Assembly (NCBI GenBank): GCA_035699745.1
Contig: DASSPH010000074.1
Coordinates: 1-64,000, forward strand
Direction: 5' to 3'
Source of the DNA: Vicinamibacterales bacterium
GTDB lineage: Bacteria; Acidobacteriota; Vicinamibacteria; Vicinamibacterales; 2-12-FULL-66-21
Length of the DNA stretch: 64,000 nucleotides
The notes beneath the pieces were generated by a model. The model was not told the origin of the DNA. It ran no database searches and worked only from the letters and a program-made list of their open reading frames with translations. Below are positions 25,275 to 64,000 of the stretch, one piece after another; positions within the stretch are counted from its first letter, which is position 1, and each line of letters opens with the position of its first letter. A program made the position numbers and the translations under genes.

Positions 25275-25901
25275 ATGCGCCTCCTCGTCCGCCGGACGCT
25301 GCTTGCGGCCCTGCTGCTGACCGCCGCGGCCGCAGGCTGGCTGCTGGTGTACGGCGGCCGCTACCTGCAGCACGAGGATCCGCTGCAGAGAGCCGACGCC
25401 ATTTTCGTCCTGGGCGGCACACGCGTCGAACGCTGGCTCGAAGCGTACGAGCTCTATCGGGCGGGCTACGCGCCGGTGATCTTCCTCAGCCCGGAGCGCG
25501 CGGAACCGGGCGAAATGCTCATCCGGACCCGCGGCGTGCGTTTCCCGAGTACGCCCGAACTGCAGCAGGCCGCGCTCGTGCAGATGGGCGTGCCGCCCGC
25601 CGCGATTCACGCGCCGGCCGGGTGGGTCGACAACACCGCGCAGGAAGGCAGCCTGCTGCGCACCACCGCGCAGGCCAGGGGGTGGAAGCGGCTGATCGTC
25701 GTCACCTCGAAATACCACACGCGGCGTTCGGGCTTCGCCGTGCGCCGTGCGCTGAAGGGGACCGGCACCGACGTCATCATGCGCGCGTCACGCTACGACC
25801 CGGCCGACCCGGCGCGCTGGTGGCGCACGCGTGCCGACCTCAGGTTTGCCGGCTCCGAGTGGATCAAGCTGGTGCTGTATCGACTGGGACTGGCCGGGTA
25901 G
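25275..25901 (+). CDS. DUF218 (YdcF/SanA-like) membrane-anchored protein
   Basis: 208 residues with one N-terminal hydrophobic helix and a DUF218 domain: AIFVLGG near 42, GWVDNTAQEGSLL near 115 and VTSKYHTRRS near 148. SanA/ElyC-type proteins affect envelope polysaccharide synthesis; the enzymatic reaction is not settled. Confidence 0.88.
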   Translation: MRLLVRRTLLAALLLTAAAAGWLLVYGGRYLQHEDPLQRADAIFVLGGTRVERWLEAYELYRAGYAPVIFLSPERAEPGEMLIRTRGVRFPSTPELQQAALVQMGVPPAAIHAPAGWVDNTAQEGSLLRTTAQARGWKRLIVVTSKYHTRRSGFAVRRALKGTGTDVIMRASRYDPADPARWWRTRADLRFAGSEWIKLVLYRLGLAG

Positions 25902-25930: not shown

Positions 25931-26020
25931 CTTCGCAATAAAGGCACAAAGGCACGAAGGCACGAAGCCAGTTACTCGGGGACGTTGCTGGCTTGATGCC
26001 CCTGTGCCTGTATTGCGAAG
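25931..26020. repeat. Dispersed hairpin repeat (AAAGGCAC family)
   Basis: Left arm 25931-25971 has CTTCGCAATAAAGGCAC followed by an 8-base period (AAAGGCAC, GAAGGCAC); right arm 25988-26020 is its imperfect reverse complement, ending TATTGCGAAG. Same plan and termini (CTTCGC...GCGAAG) as 63880-63963, and related to the units at 36.5-37.6 kb. Confidence 0.7.
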
Positions 26021-26224: not shown

Positions 26225-26322
26225 GGAAGCGAACGGGGCCCGGTGGCCCTCCCGGTCTTCAAAACCGGTTGTCTCCCGCGTTGAGCGGGAGGGCTGAGTT
26301 CGACTCTCAGGCGCTTCCGCCA
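26225..26322 (+). tRNA. selC: tRNA-Sec (UCA anticodon)
   Basis: 98 bases including encoded CCA. Acceptor GGAAGCG/CGCTTCC; long D stem (GGGCC/GGCCC); anticodon stem CCGGT/ACCGG with loop CTTCAAA giving UCA, which reads UGA; long variable arm with 7-bp stem CTCCCGC/GCGGGAG; T stem CTGAG/CTCAG with loop TTCGACT; discriminator G then CCA. The large extra arm and UCA anticodon define selenocysteine tRNA. selA, selB and selD are not in this window, and no gene here shows a convincing in-frame UGA. Confidence 0.93.
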
Positions 26323-31281: not shown

Positions 31282-31291
31282 CGGAGGTTGA

Positions 31292-31968
31292 CGGAGGGAA
31301 CGGAGGAGGGAACGGAGGGAGGGAACGGTTTAAGCGGAAACGGAGGAACGGAGGGAACGGAGGGGAACGGACTATTCACGAATCTGCACGGGCCGATACT
31401 TCGCGTTCACCACTCGGTTTATCCCGCCCTGGCTCAGGGTTTCCACGTTGAAGTTGATCAGCAACCCCACCGGCAGGTTCGTCAACCAGAGTTGCGAGAG
31501 AAGCTGCTTCTTGTGAATGGCGGCCAGCATTGAGATCGACTTGAGTTCCACTGGGACCGTTTCCTCGACCACCAGATCGAGGTAGAACTTTGATTTCAGG
31601 CGGACTCCTTTGTAGACGACCGGTGCTGCGATATTCGACTGGAACGAAAGGCGCTCCTGCTTGAATTCGTACTGGAGGCATTCGTTGTAGATGCTCTCGA
31701 AGAGACCGGGCCCGAGCACGTCGTGCACCTTGATCGCGCACCCGATGATCCGCTTGGTGATCGGACTGGTTCCGTAGGGGTCGGTGAGCATGGCGGTCGG
31801 ATGGCAATTCGCGATCCCGACCCTGAGCGGCACATTTTCCTGGGAAATTCCGGCTGTTCTCAAGGGCCCCTGGGTGAAGCCCGTCGCCTCCGTTAACCTC
31901 CGTTTCCTCCGTTCCTCCGTTCCCGCTTAAACCGTTCCCTCCCTCCGTTCCCTCCTCCGTTCCCTCCC
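31292..31968. mobile_element. Inverted-repeat cassette carrying a GxxExxY gene
   Basis: Arms at 31292-31363 and 31897-31968 are reverse complements, 45 bases perfectly (31293-31337 with 31923-31967) and about 72 with only a few mismatches. They consist of GGGAACGGAGG-type short units around a unique TTTAAGCGG. The enclosed segment holds one GxxExxY gene. The cassette lies between the stop codons of two convergent genes (pgi and fumarase), leaving both intact, as a neutral insertion would. No transposase is encoded. Confidence 0.65.
31372..31791 (-). CDS. GxxExxY family protein (PD-(D/E)XK-like)
   Basis: 139 residues. The name-giving GLFESIY occurs in GPGLFESIYNECL near 30, followed by a FYLDLVVEE core with acidic residues and an ELKSISML segment, as in PD-(D/E)XK nuclease folds. 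I start at ATG 31791, since the longer frame (to 31863) begins with TTG. Base composition is less GC-rich than its neighbours. Family function is unsettled; proposed nuclease or repeat-associated protein. Sole gene of an inverted-repeat cassette. Confidence 0.85.
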   Translation of the reverse strand: MLTDPYGTSPITKRIIGCAIKVHDVLGPGLFESIYNECLQYEFKQERLSFQSNIAAPVVYKGVRLKSKFYLDLVVEETVPVELKSISMLAAIHKKQLLSQLWLTNLPVGLLINFNVETLSQGGINRVVNAKYRPVQIRE

Positions 31969-31984
31969 TCCGTTCCCTCCCGGG

Positions 31985-34951: not shown

Positions 34952-35598
34952 TGCAGGTCCGGGCCGCCGTCCTGCTCGCGCTCCTGCTCGCCGGCGGCGC
35001 CGGCGCCGCGGCCCAGCACGTGCGGCTGTTCCCGCCCGAGGACCTCGGGCAGCTCGAGGGCCCCGATCGCGACGCGTATCAGCGCCCCGATCAGATCATG
35101 GACGCCCTCCAGATCGGCGAAGGCAGCGTCGTCGCCGACCTCGGCGCCGGGGGGGGCTGGTTCACGGTGAGGCTGGCGCGCCGCGTCGGGCCGAACGGAC
35201 GCGTGTACGCCGAAGACATCCAGCCGCAGATGATCGATGCGATCGGGCGCCGGATGGCGCGCGAGCAGCTCAAGAACGTGGAGACGGTCCTGGGGACGCC
35301 GGTGGATCCGAAACTGCGGCCGTCATCGCTCGACGCGGCGCTGATGGTCGACGCGTACCACGAGGTCGAGCACCCGGTCACGCTGCTGCGCAACGTCGCG
35401 CGCGCGCTGAAGCCGCACGGCGTGCTCGGCATCGTCAACTACAAGAAGGATGGCGGCGGACCCGGGCCCGCGATGGAGATGCGCGTCGATCCGGAGAAAG
35501 TGATCGCCGACGCCAAGGCCGCCGGGCTCGAGCTCCGCCATCGCCCTACATTCCTGCGCTACCAGTACATGCTCACGTTCGGCATCCCGCCGAAATGA
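34951..35598 (+). CDS. Secreted class I methyltransferase-like protein
   Basis: 215 residues. Signal peptide of about 20 residues, then an AdoMet-dependent methyltransferase fold with motif I VADLGAGGGWFTVRLA near 62-77 and acidic VYAEDIQ near 89. An exported methyltransferase is unusual, though this Acidobacteriota-type family is known to have such leaders. Starts at the last base of the aspartase stop and overlaps the next gene by 4 bases. Confidence 0.8.
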   Translation: MQVRAAVLLALLLAGGAGAAAQHVRLFPPEDLGQLEGPDRDAYQRPDQIMDALQIGEGSVVADLGAGGGWFTVRLARRVGPNGRVYAEDIQPQMIDAIGRRMAREQLKNVETVLGTPVDPKLRPSSLDAALMVDAYHEVEHPVTLLRNVARALKPHGVLGIVNYKKDGGGPGPAMEMRVDPEKVIADAKAAGLELRHRPTFLRYQYMLTFGIPPK

Positions 35599-36455
35599 GT
35601 GTCCCGGCCTTCCTGGCGGAGTACCAGCGGCCGGTCCTCGCCGAGATCGAGCGCCTGGTCGGAAGCGGCGAGAGCGCGGTCGAACGATCCATGGCCTACA
35701 CCGCCCTGGCACCGTCGAAGCAGGTGCGCGCCGGCCTGGTGCTGCTCTGCGCGGAGCTGTGCCGCGGACATGCCGCGCCGGCGGTGCCCGCCGCGGCGGC
35801 GATCGAGCTGGTCCACGCGTCTTCGCTGATTCTCGACGACCTGCCGTCGATGGACGATGCGCCGCTGCGGCGAGGGCGCCGCGCCAACCATCTGGAATTC
35901 GGGGAATCCGTCGCGATCCTCGCCGCGTTCGGCCTGCTGAATCTGGCCTACGGGTCGATCGCGCGCGCCTACGAGCCGGCGCTCGCGGTCGCGATGACGT
36001 CCCGCATCTCCGATGCCGTCGGCCCGTCGGGACTCATCGGCGGCCAGGCGCTGGATCTCGCGGCGACCAGTCGTCCGATCGATTTCGAGACGCTCGAACG
36101 GATCCACCGCGGCAAGACCGGCGCGCTGTTCGTCGCCGCGGCCGTCTGCGGCGCCCTGACCGCCGGCGCGGCGGCGGAGCCGATCGCCGCCCTCTCCGCG
36201 TACGCGAAGAACCTCGGGCTCGCCTTTCAGATCGTCGACGACCTGCTCGACGTCGCCGGCGATCCGCGGGAGACGGGGAAGGCGGTCCGCGCCGACGCGC
36301 GCAAGACGACCTTCGTCTCGTTCAGCGGCGTGGACGGCGCGCGGCAGCTCGCGGCGGAGCTGTGCGACACGGCGGATCGCGCGCTGACGCCATTCGGCGC
36401 AAAGGCGGATCGATTGCGCGAGCTGTCACGGTTCGTGGCGGCGCGGCGGCTGTAG
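35595..36455 (+). CDS. Polyprenyl (farnesyl/geranylgeranyl) diphosphate synthase
   Basis: 286 residues. First Asp-rich motif DDLPSMDD near 82 followed by RRGRRANH; second Asp-rich motif DDLLD near 214; KNLGLAFQIVDD region and GKAVRADARKTTF typical of IspA-like synthases. Makes C15-C20 isoprenoid diphosphates for quinone and cell-wall lipid carriers. Start overlaps the methyltransferase stop (ATGA); the length is normal. Confidence 0.9.
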   Translation: MSVPAFLAEYQRPVLAEIERLVGSGESAVERSMAYTALAPSKQVRAGLVLLCAELCRGHAAPAVPAAAAIELVHASSLILDDLPSMDDAPLRRGRRANHLEFGESVAILAAFGLLNLAYGSIARAYEPALAVAMTSRISDAVGPSGLIGGQALDLAATSRPIDFETLERIHRGKTGALFVAAAVCGALTAGAAAEPIAALSAYAKNLGLAFQIVDDLLDVAGDPRETGKAVRADARKTTFVSFSGVDGARQLAAELCDTADRALTPFGAKADRLRELSRFVAARRL

Positions 36456-37609
36456 ACGAGACACGCAGAGACGCGCCACGTCTCGTCTCTGCCACCTTAC
36501 AGACGAAACCCGCTGAGACGCGCCACGGCGAGCGGGCACCACGATCACGAAGATCACCAAGTTCACAAAGAAGACGAGTTGGTGTCTTCGTGTCCGCTGC
36601 CGTCGGCCCGTCGCAGTCAAGCCTTGTCCGGTGCTGCAAACGAGACACGCTGAAACGCGCCACGGCGGCGGGCATCAAGATCACGAAGAGATCACCAAGT
36701 TCACGAAGAAGACGAGATTGGTCTTCGTGCCTTTGTGCCTTGGTGTCTTCGTGTCCGCTGCCGTCGGCCCCGTCGCAGTCAAGCCCTTGTCCGGCGCTGC
36801 AAACGAGACACGCCGAGACGCGCCACGGCGGCGGGCATCAAGATCACGAAGATCACCAAGTTCACAAAGAAGACGAGATTGGTCTTCGTGCCTTTGTGTC
36901 TTGGTGTCTTCGTGTCCGCTGCCGTCGGCCCCGTCGCAGTCAAGCCTTGTCCGGCGCTGCAAACGAGACACGCCGAGACGCGCCACGGCGGCGGGCATCA
37001 AGATCACGAAGAGATCACCAAGTTCACAAAGAAGACGAGATGGGTCTTCGTGCTCTCTGTGATCTGGGTGTCTTCGTGTCCGCTGCCGTCGGCCCCGTCG
37101 CAGTCAAGCCCTTGTCCGGCGCTGCAAACGAGACACGCTGAAACGCGCCACGGCGAGCGGGCATCAAGATCACGAAGATCACCAAGTTCACGAAGAAGAC
37201 GAGATTGGTCTTCGTTGCCTTTGTGTCTTGGTGTCTTCGTGTCCGCTGCCGTCGGTCGGCCCGTCGCAGTCAAGCCTTGTCCGGCGCTGCAAACGAGACA
37301 CGCCGAGACGCGCCACGCGGCGGGCATCAAGATCACGAAGATCACCAAGTTCACAAAGAAGACGAGATGGGTCTTCGTGCCTTTGTGTCTTGGTGTCTTC
37401 GTGTCCGCTGCCGTCGGCCCGTCGCAGCCAAGCCTTATCCGGCGCTGCAAACGAGACACGCTGAAACGCGCCACGGCGGCGGGCATCAAGATCACGAAGA
37501 TCACCAAGTTCACAAAGAAGACGAGATTGGTCTTCGTGCCTTTGTGTCTTGGTGTCTTCGTGTCCGCTGCCCGTCGGCCCGTCGCAATCAAGCCTTATCC
37601 CGCGCTGCA
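36456..37609. repeat. Tandem array of seven hairpin units (~160 bp)
   Basis: Six full units start with AAACGAGACACGC at 36638, 36801, 36961, 37126, 37291 and 37449 (spacings 163, 160, 165, 165 and 158), preceded by a shorter unit from about 36502 and a fragment at 36453. Each contains CACGAAGATCACCAAG and, after a short loop, the near reverse complement CTTGGTGTCTTCGTG, forming a stem of about 30 bp with a few bulges; the remaining ~90 bases are a conserved GC-rich spacer. Open frames run through because several unit lengths are multiples of three, but the peptides are repetitive and not protein-like. Function unknown. Confidence 0.85.
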
Positions 37610-37680: not shown

Positions 37681-39579
37681 ATGACGTCCGTTCCTGACGC
37701 ACGCGTTGACCAGCTGCGGGCGCAGCTTCGCGCGCTCGGCTATCTCGACGCCGGTGTCGACCGCTTCGTGCTCGGGCCGGCGCAGGATCGGCGCGGGCCG
37801 GCGGGGCTCGCGTTCCGTCTGGCGCTGCGGGTCGGCGTGCTCGGCGGCCTTCTGCTCGGGCCGGCGGCGGCGATTGGCGTCGGCGCGCGGCTGCCGGGAC
37901 TGATCAGCGGCGTTCGCGATGCTGCCGTCATGGCGCTCTACCTCGCCGTCATCTTCTGGCTGGCGGTCGGCGCGCTGACGTTTCTCGTCATGATTGCGAC
38001 GGTCGCGTTCGCGCGGCTCGGTGCGGGGCCATTCGACCGCCGCGGCCCGCGCGCGGCGCGCGCCGCGGCAGGGATCACCACGCTGGCCACTCTCGTGTAC
38101 TTGACGCTGTGGTGGCGCAACGCCAGCGCCGGATTCGGCTGGAGCGCGCCGGCGTGGACCGCCTCGGCGCTGGTGCTCGCCGTCGCGATCAGCCTGCTGC
38201 TCGGCCACGCGCAGCGGATCGCAACGCTGGCCGTGCTCGCGTCCGCCGCGGGACCCTCGGCGCACCTGCCGCCGGTCGGCGCGCGCTCCTGGCGTGTCGT
38301 CCTGGCCGGAGGCGCCCTGGCGTTCGCCGGCGCGGCGGCGCTCCTGATCGTGACCGCGAGCGAAGCGGCGACGGCCTCCGCCACCTCTCCGCTGACCGTG
38401 GTTCCGACGGGCAAGCGACTCCGCGTCATCGCGATCGACGGCTTCGATACCTCGCTGTCGCCCGAGTCGGCGGCGGGTCTGCGCGCGGCGAATCAGGGAC
38501 GGCACGCCGAGGTCGCGTCGCAGGACCTCGCCGATCCGGCGCGGGGCTGGACGACCATTGCGACGGGGACCCCGCCCGACGTCCATGGCGTGCACGCCCT
38601 CGAAACGCGGCGCGTGGCGGGACTCGTCGGCATTCTCAGCCCCGGCAGCGGACAGATCGGGCGGCTCGTGCAGTCAGCCACCGACGTGGTGCGGTTGACC
38701 AGGCCGGCCGCGGCCAGCCGCGAGGAGCGGCGCGTCAAGACCTTCTGGGAAGTCGCCGCGGACGCGGGGCTGCGCACCGCGGTGGTGAACTGGTGGGCGA
38801 CGTGGCCGGCGGCGGCCGAGAGCGGCATCGTGATCAGCGATCGCGCGGTACTGCGACTCGAGCAGGGGGGGCCGCTGGACGCGGAGATCGCGCCTGCCCC
38901 GCTCTATGACACGTTGCAGGCGGCGTGGCCGGGCATCAGGAGCCGGGCGCGGGACGAGGCGCATCTCCAGTTCGACGGCCTCAGCGACGACGACGTGCGC
39001 CGGACGCTGATCCGGTCGGCGGAGCTGGATGCGACGGTGATCGGCATCTTCCAGGCGCTGCCCGGGCCGCCGCGCGACCTGGATGTGATCTATCTTCCCG
39101 GACTGGACATCGCGCAGCATGCGCTGCTGTCCGGCGTCGGCGCGACACCGTCCGTCCTCGCGGCGCGGCTCGACGCGCTGCGCCGTTACTATTCGTTTCT
39201 CGATCGTGCGCTGGCGCCGCTCGTGCCGCAGGATGACCCGTCGCTGATGGTCATGCGCATCCTGCAGCCCGGGCGCGTATCCACGCGCGCGCGCGGCAAT
39301 GTCGCGCTCACCAACGCGGCGGAGCCGGCCGACGTCCTGGCGTCCATCGAACCGGTCGACATCGCACCAACCATTGCGTTCGCCCTGGGCGTGCCGCTGA
39401 GCCGCGAGCTGCCCGGCGCACCGGCGGAATTCCTGTTCCCGGCGGAGTTCACCCGCCGATTTCCGCCACGCTTCGTCGAGCGGTATTCGCCTCCGTCGGC
39501 GGCGCGCGGACCGCGAACAGGCAAGCCGCTCGATCACGAGATGATCGATCGGCTGCGCAGCCTGGGCTACATCAAATAG
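37681..39579 (+). CDS. Membrane type I phosphodiesterase/alkaline phosphatase-fold protein
   Basis: 632 residues. About five hydrophobic helices in the first 240 residues, then an alkaline-phosphatase-superfamily domain with strand RVIAIDGFDTS near 250 and WTTIATGTPPDVHG near 290, both typical of the PF01663 group (nucleophile Thr in WTTIATG). IYLPGLDIAQHALL and later acidic/His segments supply the metal ligands. Probably hydrolyses phosphodiesters or transfers phospho-groups at the periplasmic face. Confidence 0.8.
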   Translation: MTSVPDARVDQLRAQLRALGYLDAGVDRFVLGPAQDRRGPAGLAFRLALRVGVLGGLLLGPAAAIGVGARLPGLISGVRDAAVMALYLAVIFWLAVGALTFLVMIATVAFARLGAGPFDRRGPRAARAAAGITTLATLVYLTLWWRNASAGFGWSAPAWTASALVLAVAISLLLGHAQRIATLAVLASAAGPSAHLPPVGARSWRVVLAGGALAFAGAAALLIVTASEAATASATSPLTVVPTGKRLRVIAIDGFDTSLSPESAAGLRAANQGRHAEVASQDLADPARGWTTIATGTPPDVHGVHALETRRVAGLVGILSPGSGQIGRLVQSATDVVRLTRPAAASREERRVKTFWEVAADAGLRTAVVNWWATWPAAAESGIVISDRAVLRLEQGGPLDAEIAPAPLYDTLQAAWPGIRSRARDEAHLQFDGLSDDDVRRTLIRSAELDATVIGIFQALPGPPRDLDVIYLPGLDIAQHALLSGVGATPSVLAARLDALRRYYSFLDRALAPLVPQDDPSLMVMRILQPGRVSTRARGNVALTNAAEPADVLASIEPVDIAPTIAFALGVPLSRELPGAPAEFLFPAEFTRRFPPRFVERYSPPSAARGPRTGKPLDHEMIDRLRSLGYIK

Positions 39580-63278: not shown

Positions 63279-63797
63279 GTGTCTGCTGAACGTCTCTCGT
63301 CGGAGCAGGTCTTCAAGGGCAAGGTCTTCTCGGTGGATCGCGATACGGTGAAGATGCCGAACGGGCGCACCGTCGCCGTGGACGTCGTCCGCCACTCGAA
63401 GTCCGTGGTGATCGTCCCGATCCCGGAGCCGGGGAAGGTGATCCTCATCCGGCAATACCGCTATCCGGTGAACGCGTATCTGTGGGAGCTGCCGGCCGGA
63501 AGCGTCGACGAAGGGGAAACGCCGGACGCGGCGGCGCGCCGCGAGTGCCACGAGGAGATCGGCCTGGTGCCGTCGACGGCCGTCCGCCTGAGCGCGATGC
63601 TGCCGACGCCGGGCTACTGCGACGAAGAGATGATCTTCTTCCGCGTATCCGGCCTGGAGCAGACCGACGAGCCGGCGCACGTGGACGAGGACGAGGACAT
63701 CGAAGCGCGGACGTTCGACCTGCGCGACGCCCGCGAGATGGTCCGCCGCGGCGAGATCACCGACATGAAGACGCTGGTGGGGCTGACGCTGATCTGA
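63279..63797 (+). CDS. NUDIX ADP-ribose pyrophosphatase-like hydrolase
   Basis: 172 residues from GTG 63279 (AGGAG five bases upstream). Complete NUDIX box G-SVDEG-E then RRECHEEIGL near 70-92 and preceding IRQYRYPVNAYLWELPAG; LPTPGYCDE near 108 is the ADP-ribose-specific segment. Hydrolyses ADP-ribose to AMP and ribose-5-phosphate. Confidence 0.94.
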   Translation: MSAERLSSEQVFKGKVFSVDRDTVKMPNGRTVAVDVVRHSKSVVIVPIPEPGKVILIRQYRYPVNAYLWELPAGSVDEGETPDAAARRECHEEIGLVPSTAVRLSAMLPTPGYCDEEMIFFRVSGLEQTDEPAHVDEDEDIEARTFDLRDAREMVRRGEITDMKTLVGLTLI

Positions 63798-64000
63798 GCC
63801 CGCGGATGCTTCAGCGGCGGAATCTTCCGCCTGCGCGGAAGCTACAGACAGATCGCTCGGCTGAGACGGGCAGACGCAGCTTCGCAGCAAGGCACGAAGT
63901 CACAAAGCCACACTCAAGAACTGGTTTTTCTTGGCTTCGTGCCTTTGTGCCTTCCTCGCGAAGCCATCGCAAATGCGTGTCAGCGTGCCCTCAAGCTTTT
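63798..64000. repeat. Right edge with AAGGCAC-family hairpin
   Basis: No gene. A hairpin GGCGGAA/TTCCGCC lies near 63816-63831 just after the NUDIX stop, possibly a terminator without a T-run. A long imperfect inverted repeat (left arm 63880-63920, right arm 63924-63963) begins CTTCGCAGCAAGGCACGAAG and ends with GCGAAG, same family as 25931-26020. Nothing else recognisable. Confidence 0.6.

Follow-up and report, generated by a model that had tools for sequence, protein, structure and literature searches.

We analyzed a stretch of 64,000 nucleotides from a Vicinamibacterales genome (hereafter, the window), in which a tandem array of hairpins occupies positions 36456–37609. The array starts at the TAG stop codon of a polyprenyl synthetase gene on the + strand (35595–36455; PF00348, Pfam E 4.1e-46, gene call) and is followed on the same strand by a phosphodiesterase-like gene (37681–39579; PF01663, Pfam E 1.1e-7), which is the neighbour of the synthetase gene in relatives. 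TRF detected a tandem repeat with a period of 163, 6.4 copies and 93% matches at 36579–37609, and seven unit starts were located, confirming the seven tandem hairpin units of ~160 bp that an earlier note on this DNA had described. The seven units are preceded by a 41-nt truncated eighth copy (36456–36496), in which, as read directly from the sequence, the outer end is fused to its own inverse. Unit alignment placed the units at 36497–36639 (unit 1), 36640–36802 (unit 2), 36803–36962 (unit 3), 36963–37127 (unit 4), 37128–37292 (unit 5), 37293–37450 (unit 6) and 37451–37609 (unit 7). Units 2–7 are 158–165 nt long and differ pairwise by 3–15% in this alignment, with private indels. A coding array was rejected, because the unit lengths vary and some cannot be divided by three, which shifts the reading frame.

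The fold of each unit is a hairpin of ~130 nt with 46–50 pairs (39 in unit 1, whose right arm has lost ~25 nt). The outer inverted end of the units, GAGACGCGCCACGGC / GCCGTCGGCCCGTCGCAG, encloses CACxAAG blocks, which are spaced at 9 nt in the left arm and at 8 nt in the right arm. The hairpin is real but larger than the stem of ~30 bp first supposed, because the periodic stem sits within outer inverted ends, and the supposed 9-base period holds for the left arm but not for the right. The change in unit 4 lies in the right arm, as had been claimed; this altered arm has a 9-nt spacing, and its GTGATCT is complementary to AGATCAC in the left arm of the same unit. Unit 3, the reference hairpin, had an energy of −76.4 kcal/mol (z −5.5) when folded as RNA and of −44.7 (z −5.6) when folded as DNA, and none of 200 dinucleotide shuffles folded as well.

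The gap between the synthetase and phosphodiesterase-like genes is 1,225 bp in the window genome and ~35 bp or less, with some overlaps, in all relatives from which both genes were recovered (the comparison covered such relatives within the family and three more distant genomes). Because the flanking genes nearly touch in relatives, the array is a derived feature specific to this lineage, inserted into a gene pair that is otherwise conserved. Further, 11 of the 28 pairs of variable sites in units 2–7 failed the four-gamete test, indicating that the units are mosaics that arose through recombination among themselves.

A dispersed family of palindromic repeats

The CACxAAG motif is common to the array, 25931–26020 and 63880–63963, far above chance, and the dispersed family that the earlier note considered to be amplified here was borne out by a hand tally over combined searches, which put the number of loci in this genome of 6.3 Mb at about 35, with three independent arrays. 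A three-block CACxAAG pattern matched the genome 28 times, compared with no match of the reversed control. In the window, dispersed single copies lie at 25931–26020, with arms of 8-nt period, downstream of a gene at 25275–25901, and at 63868–63963, downstream of a gene at 63279–63797. A selenocysteine tRNA (26225–26318, + strand; Rfam 61.8 bits) is located ~200 bases from the former copy.

In its fullest form, the outer inverted end of the family is CAGGCTTGACTGAGACGxGCCGACGGC, placed around CACxAAG arms of 8- or 9-nt period. The sequence CTGAGACGxGCCxACGGC stands at both ends of several copies, which thus possess terminal inverted repeats as MITEs do. The second array (C62) consists of five units of 165 bp and the third (C40) of three units of 161 bp, and the spacers are unrelated among the three arrays. 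Since C62 and C40 each have their own spacer, amplification occurred at least three times. A minimal copy (C64:39763) is a ~40-nt palindrome without CACxAAG arms that fills a gap between convergent genes, and another copy (C66) is a near-perfect palindrome of about 50 bp. Direct, non-hairpin clusters of CACxAAG blocks also exist (G029 C53).

Among the loci with clear neighbours, with genes called by a simple codon model, 15 of 32 were located between convergent genes, compared with 10 of 55 baseline gaps (p=0.007), and one of 32 between divergent genes, compared with 11 of 55 (p=0.049); this analysis also suggests that locus C99 should be reassigned to the convergent class. In several copies, the outer end (CTGAGACG) supplies the stop codon of the gene before it or abuts that codon. 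Most loci of the family lie behind genes; hairpins are probably tolerated at 3' ends, which would explain why copies sit after stop codons.

In G008, a genome of the same bacterial family, these outer ends and arms surround an extra multi-branched core, with at least 57 matches, and the central stem of this core carries many double Watson-Crick changes. The G008 composite is a cloverleaf-like palindrome of ~400 bp (L217 950–1400, L219, L258, L259, L261, L262, L266 and L268). The 9-mer pattern was present in 53 of 193 genomes of the class, with up to 188 hits each, and in none of 31 genomes of other orders, and the reversed control gave almost no matches. The exact 8-mer pattern was found in one of 50 mostly non-acidobacterial genomes, that of a Phycisphaerae bacterium. 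Presence differs strongly among the genera of one bacterial family, and the repeat family is patchily abundant across one bacterial order. The relatives also contain other intergenic hairpins or clusters with units of 8–9 nt, namely GGTGACTT, GTTGGGAG, ACGCAGAGA and AACATCCCA (L050, L051, L052, L172 and L062). A search of the open-access literature by the literal repeat motifs returned nothing relevant.

GxxExxY genes between periodic inverted arms

One copy of the family (C93:14081–14593; L333 1570–2110, G000) contains an intact 133-aa ORF between inverted CACxAAG arms. The product is GxxExxY, a protein name that comes from NCBI annotation (PF13366 E 5.8e-34, 117.4 bits compared with a Pfam threshold of 22; TIGR04256, 119.4 bits compared with an NCBIfam threshold of 35). 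Its PD-(D/E)XK catalytic residues are intact, E37, D76, E86 and K88 being invariant in nine members, C93 among them; no solved structure related to GxxExxY by sequence was found. The arms of the C93 copy match gene-less hairpins in its own genome, best those at C8, C40 and C26a (scores 73–79). The window units match C93 directly at a score of 30, compared with a shuffle maximum of 29, which is a weak match; the tie between them runs through other copies, among them C40, which combines the outer end of the window units with the collar GCTCCGG of C93. The C93 copy is a candidate autonomous form of the family to which the array belongs.

When 2.43 Mb of loci were scanned, three GxxExxY ORFs were detected besides those in loci chosen for GxxExxY (L333, L173 and L057 had been chosen for the repeat), all three between CAC.AAG and CTT.GTG arms. 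The GxxExxY ORF of G029 (C57) is flanked by 11 CAC.AAG blocks and, on its opposite side, by eight CTT.GTG blocks, and G048 carries a decayed copy. The G029 and G048 copies (L173 and L057) appear to represent one ancestral insertion, because both lie beside what seems to be the same mazG-like gene end.

The window itself contains a second, gene-bearing element at 31290–31981, which has the same architecture and another arm sequence. Its left arm (31290–31372) is periodic and of the GGAGGGAACGGA type, its right arm (31887–31981; TRF, inverted repeat) is of the CCGTTCCCTCC type, and the two form an 82-nt inverted repeat that scored 139, compared with 38 or less at 1,907 other positions of the window. 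The enclosed ORF on the − strand (31375–31833) was chosen from two opposed periodic TRF clusters alone (31293–31371 and 31887–31981) and then proved to be GxxExxY (PF13366 E 4.3e-35, 121 bits compared with the Pfam threshold of 22; TIGR04256 E 7.2e-38, 129.5 bits compared with the NCBIfam threshold of 35).

A blind scan for long-spaced inverted repeats yielded, besides GxxExxY cases, several with arms of 7-nt period. Three of the four of these that were examined enclose a 23S_rRNA_IVP gene, which encodes a four-helix bundle (PF05635, E 1e-26 to 3e-31), in Roseofilum (L085 5342–5770), G203 (L365 3402–4021) and G029 (L400 15202–15775). Therefore, periodic arms are not exclusive to GxxExxY. Further, the 63 entries of the scan were mostly the repeats of one array, GC-rich chance matches and gene-less G008 copies, so that the presence of a gene does not follow from arms alone.

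GxxExxY genes in other phyla

Outside the phylum, GxxExxY genes on plasmids were taken from a tblastn listing. Of the 11 GxxExxY genes tested, six had significant inverted flanks (p<=0.005 in comparison both with shuffles and with the remainder of the locus), namely both Gemmatirosa genes read and those of Bernardetia, Bacteroides, G000 and G029. No clear inverted flanks were found at the other five, in Sphingomonas, Persicobacter, Fusobacteria, Prevotella and Treponema, the last of which was marginal. The flanking arms are periodic, being CACAGAGGA-like in Bacteroides and CGCAGAGGA-like and GGACTGAAGAA in Gemmatirosa; the architecture thus recurs, with other arm sequences, in Bacteroidota and Gemmatimonadota. 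In Bacteroides, arms of 30 bp bound an insert of ~470 bp between radA and the following gene.

Single GxxExxY insertions were observed between housekeeping genes (L362, L386 and L364), at fabD/fabG in Sphingomonas, radA/FAD-dependent protein in Bacteroides and adenine deaminase/mannose-1-phosphate guanylyltransferase in Bernardetia. If GxxExxY belongs to an element, more copies of its arms are expected in the same genome, and Gemmatirosa is the one case counted: on its two plasmids, one arm family has at least 70 matching places and the other at least 78. Two further places that were read are hairpins without GxxExxY. The plasmids of Gemmatirosa kalamazoonensis (L361, L385, L410 and L411) thus bear two periodic-hairpin families, each with a GxxExxY gene. 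GxxExxY was not found in phages or viral contigs, and no similar phage or plasmid DNA was found; a phage or plasmid origin was rejected.

Complementarity of the arms and alternative explanations

It had been claimed that the two sides of the stem drift together within the array, as a sign of selection for pairing. Because periodic arms slip in register, alignment with MAFFT/RNAalifold performed poorly (just 9 pairs from 17 copies), and we therefore used a permutation test in which each left arm was set against inverted right arms, first that of its own copy and then those of other copies. Within the array, own-arm similarity was 0.346 and between-unit similarity was 0.356 (p=0.93, units 2–7; p=0.15 when unit 1 was added), and the claim is unsupported there. 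Across 19 dispersed loci, in contrast, the arms covary (0.379 compared with 0.208, p=0.0002), with a possible slight bias toward own-arm similarity from the delimitation of arms by folding, which would affect the array as well. Arm complementarity is thus kept over the history of the family and has left no trace inside the young array.

Covariation across loci, together with the great stability of the hairpins, the location of about half of the copies between convergent genes and the stop codons in or beside several outer ends (CTGAGACG), would fit functional RNA hairpins, that is, 3'-end (bidirectional) terminators or stability elements whose arms are kept by RNA selection, the array insulating or attenuating the downstream gene. 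Such selection is expected to leave more G-U pairs than A-C mismatches on the transcribed strand. The counts were 34:21 on the sense strand of same-direction loci (p=0.10), 54:48 at convergent loci and, in reverse, 9:16 in the oriented G008 core with one invariant wobble column excluded; they do not favour RNA selection. Nor is the covariation of dispersed copies a proof of RNA, because stems of this kind can be formed and preserved by template switching during DNA replication, which gives an identical signal (PMC8794818). Further, one terminator-like hairpin with a T run was found in the region, compared with 1.7 expected by chance, and an Rfam search of the array and eight G008 loci returned nothing above the gathering threshold; matches to mir-4529 (E 0.06–0.7) were dismissed as chance. 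The source of structured RNA or binding array that the earlier note had suggested is without an Rfam match and is unnecessary for explaining the facts. Given also that the array has no internal covariation and that presence varies strongly between genera of one bacterial family, we regard RNA function as unlikely, with some room left for a 3'-end role because transcription is assumed for REPs located behind genes (PMC3733652). The family appears to be palindromic DNA of a mobile or selfish kind and not a conserved RNA.

Palindromes might also arise by mutation without any mobiliser, through template switching and 8–9-nt slippage, and spread by recombination, the GxxExxY and IVP genes being passengers. 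This would suit arms that covary by Watson-Crick double changes with few wobble steps, the direct, non-hairpin block clusters (G029 C53) and the known capacity of template switching to create and maintain stems (PMC8794818). However, outer ends shared by unrelated loci, and also by another genus, require the copying of a defined element, and two specific families of small proteins are found repeatedly between arms of this kind, which leaves a purely mutational origin improbable. A protein binding-site array, kept in tandem for dosage, would account for a motif repeated at regular spacing but is very improbable, because unit length varies (158–165 bp), the spacers differ between the three arrays and relatives lack the array. 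Even less credible is an assembly artefact in this draft genome of 110 contigs, because units 2–7 differ by 3–15% with private indels and the two other arrays have their own spacers.

Discussion

We consider it moderately probable that the array units are non-autonomous derivatives of a GxxExxY-associated palindromic element that were locally amplified, the spread of the element being driven by the nuclease. This GxxExxY-element reading accounts for the insertion and the constant ends, for the patchy distribution of the family and the copies that bear a gene, and for the parallels seen in other phyla. The gene-bearing copies would be its autonomous form, and gene-less hairpins such as the window units would be the non-autonomous derivatives. 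The GxxExxY nuclease would spread the element, perhaps by acting on an extruded hairpin or four-way junction, and the copying itself may be performed by host replication or repair. The array itself is a single dispersed palindromic copy amplified in tandem, and it may have grown when the hairpin caused slippage during replication or served as a site of unequal exchange.

On a broader view, to which we give an even chance, short-period (7–11-nt) inverted arms mark an undescribed class of mobile or selfish elements of small size in Acidobacteriota, Gemmatimonadota, Bacteroidota and Cyanobacteria, which comprise one gene of ~125 aa and crowds of gene-less hairpins, and the array consists of such derivatives in amplified form. 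The enclosed gene would presumably encode the GxxExxY PD-(D/E)XK nuclease, with the 23S_rRNA_IVP four-helix-bundle protein in its place in a sister group.

The intervening sequences of 23S rRNA that carry an IVP gene (PF05635) have a small ORF enclosed by an inverted-arm stem. Unlike these, the window family is intergenic, has arms of 8–9-nt period and encloses GxxExxY or nothing. To our knowledge, short-period intergenic repeats have no established origin. Like the family described here, the intergenic heptamer repeats of Beggiatoaceae (TAACTGA; PMC4679880) and the cyanobacterial STRRs are short-period, intergenic and patchy, but the TAACTGA sets are direct repeats (PMC4679880), whereas the arms here are inverted and lie inside defined ends. 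The family resembles MITEs in being short, non-coding, intergenic and probably non-autonomous, with inverted ends; it differs in that the element is almost wholly palindromic and that a parent insertion sequence with these ends was not found. TIRtrons, that is, TIR repeats with TIRYT transposases, have been reported also from Acidobacteria and have inverted ends around a small gene as well as dispersed gene-less copies (PMC3733652). However, the three Y1 transposases of this genome are without family ends in the loci read.

A close parallel is provided by the REPtrons, in which REP/BIME sequences are linked to a RAYT gene (Di Nocera 2013, PMC3733652). REPs are likewise high-copy extragenic palindromes, found for the most part downstream of genes, where the neighbouring genes converge or run in the same direction; they can form clusters, and a few copies flank a nuclease-type gene (PMC3733652). 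They differ in length, being 20–40 nt compared with ~100–170 nt and periodic arms here, and in the gene, which is an HUH tyrosine transposase for RAYT and a PD-(D/E)XK GxxExxY protein here. By eye, no constant REP-type GTAG end was seen in the copies read, and CGTC is internal to the outer end, not terminal. Neither an outer end nor a CACxAAG block pair was found by pattern at the three HUH/Y1 transposase loci (PF01797), whose best short match to the repeat had an E of about 0.03–0.1. An adjacent HUH transposase partner was therefore rejected, on the ground that the three loci in the genome are without such arms; action in trans could occur.

The open-access literature on GxxExxY, against which novelty was judged, holds almost nothing, with passing mentions and no statement on repeats. 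The link between GxxExxY and the repeats would give both a first testable role, as a PD-(D/E)XK nuclease paired with hairpin DNA, and it could be tested in Gemmatirosa kalamazoonensis, a named strain whose plasmids are completely sequenced. This pairing of GxxExxY with hairpins would parallel that of RAYT with REP, with unrelated chemistry.
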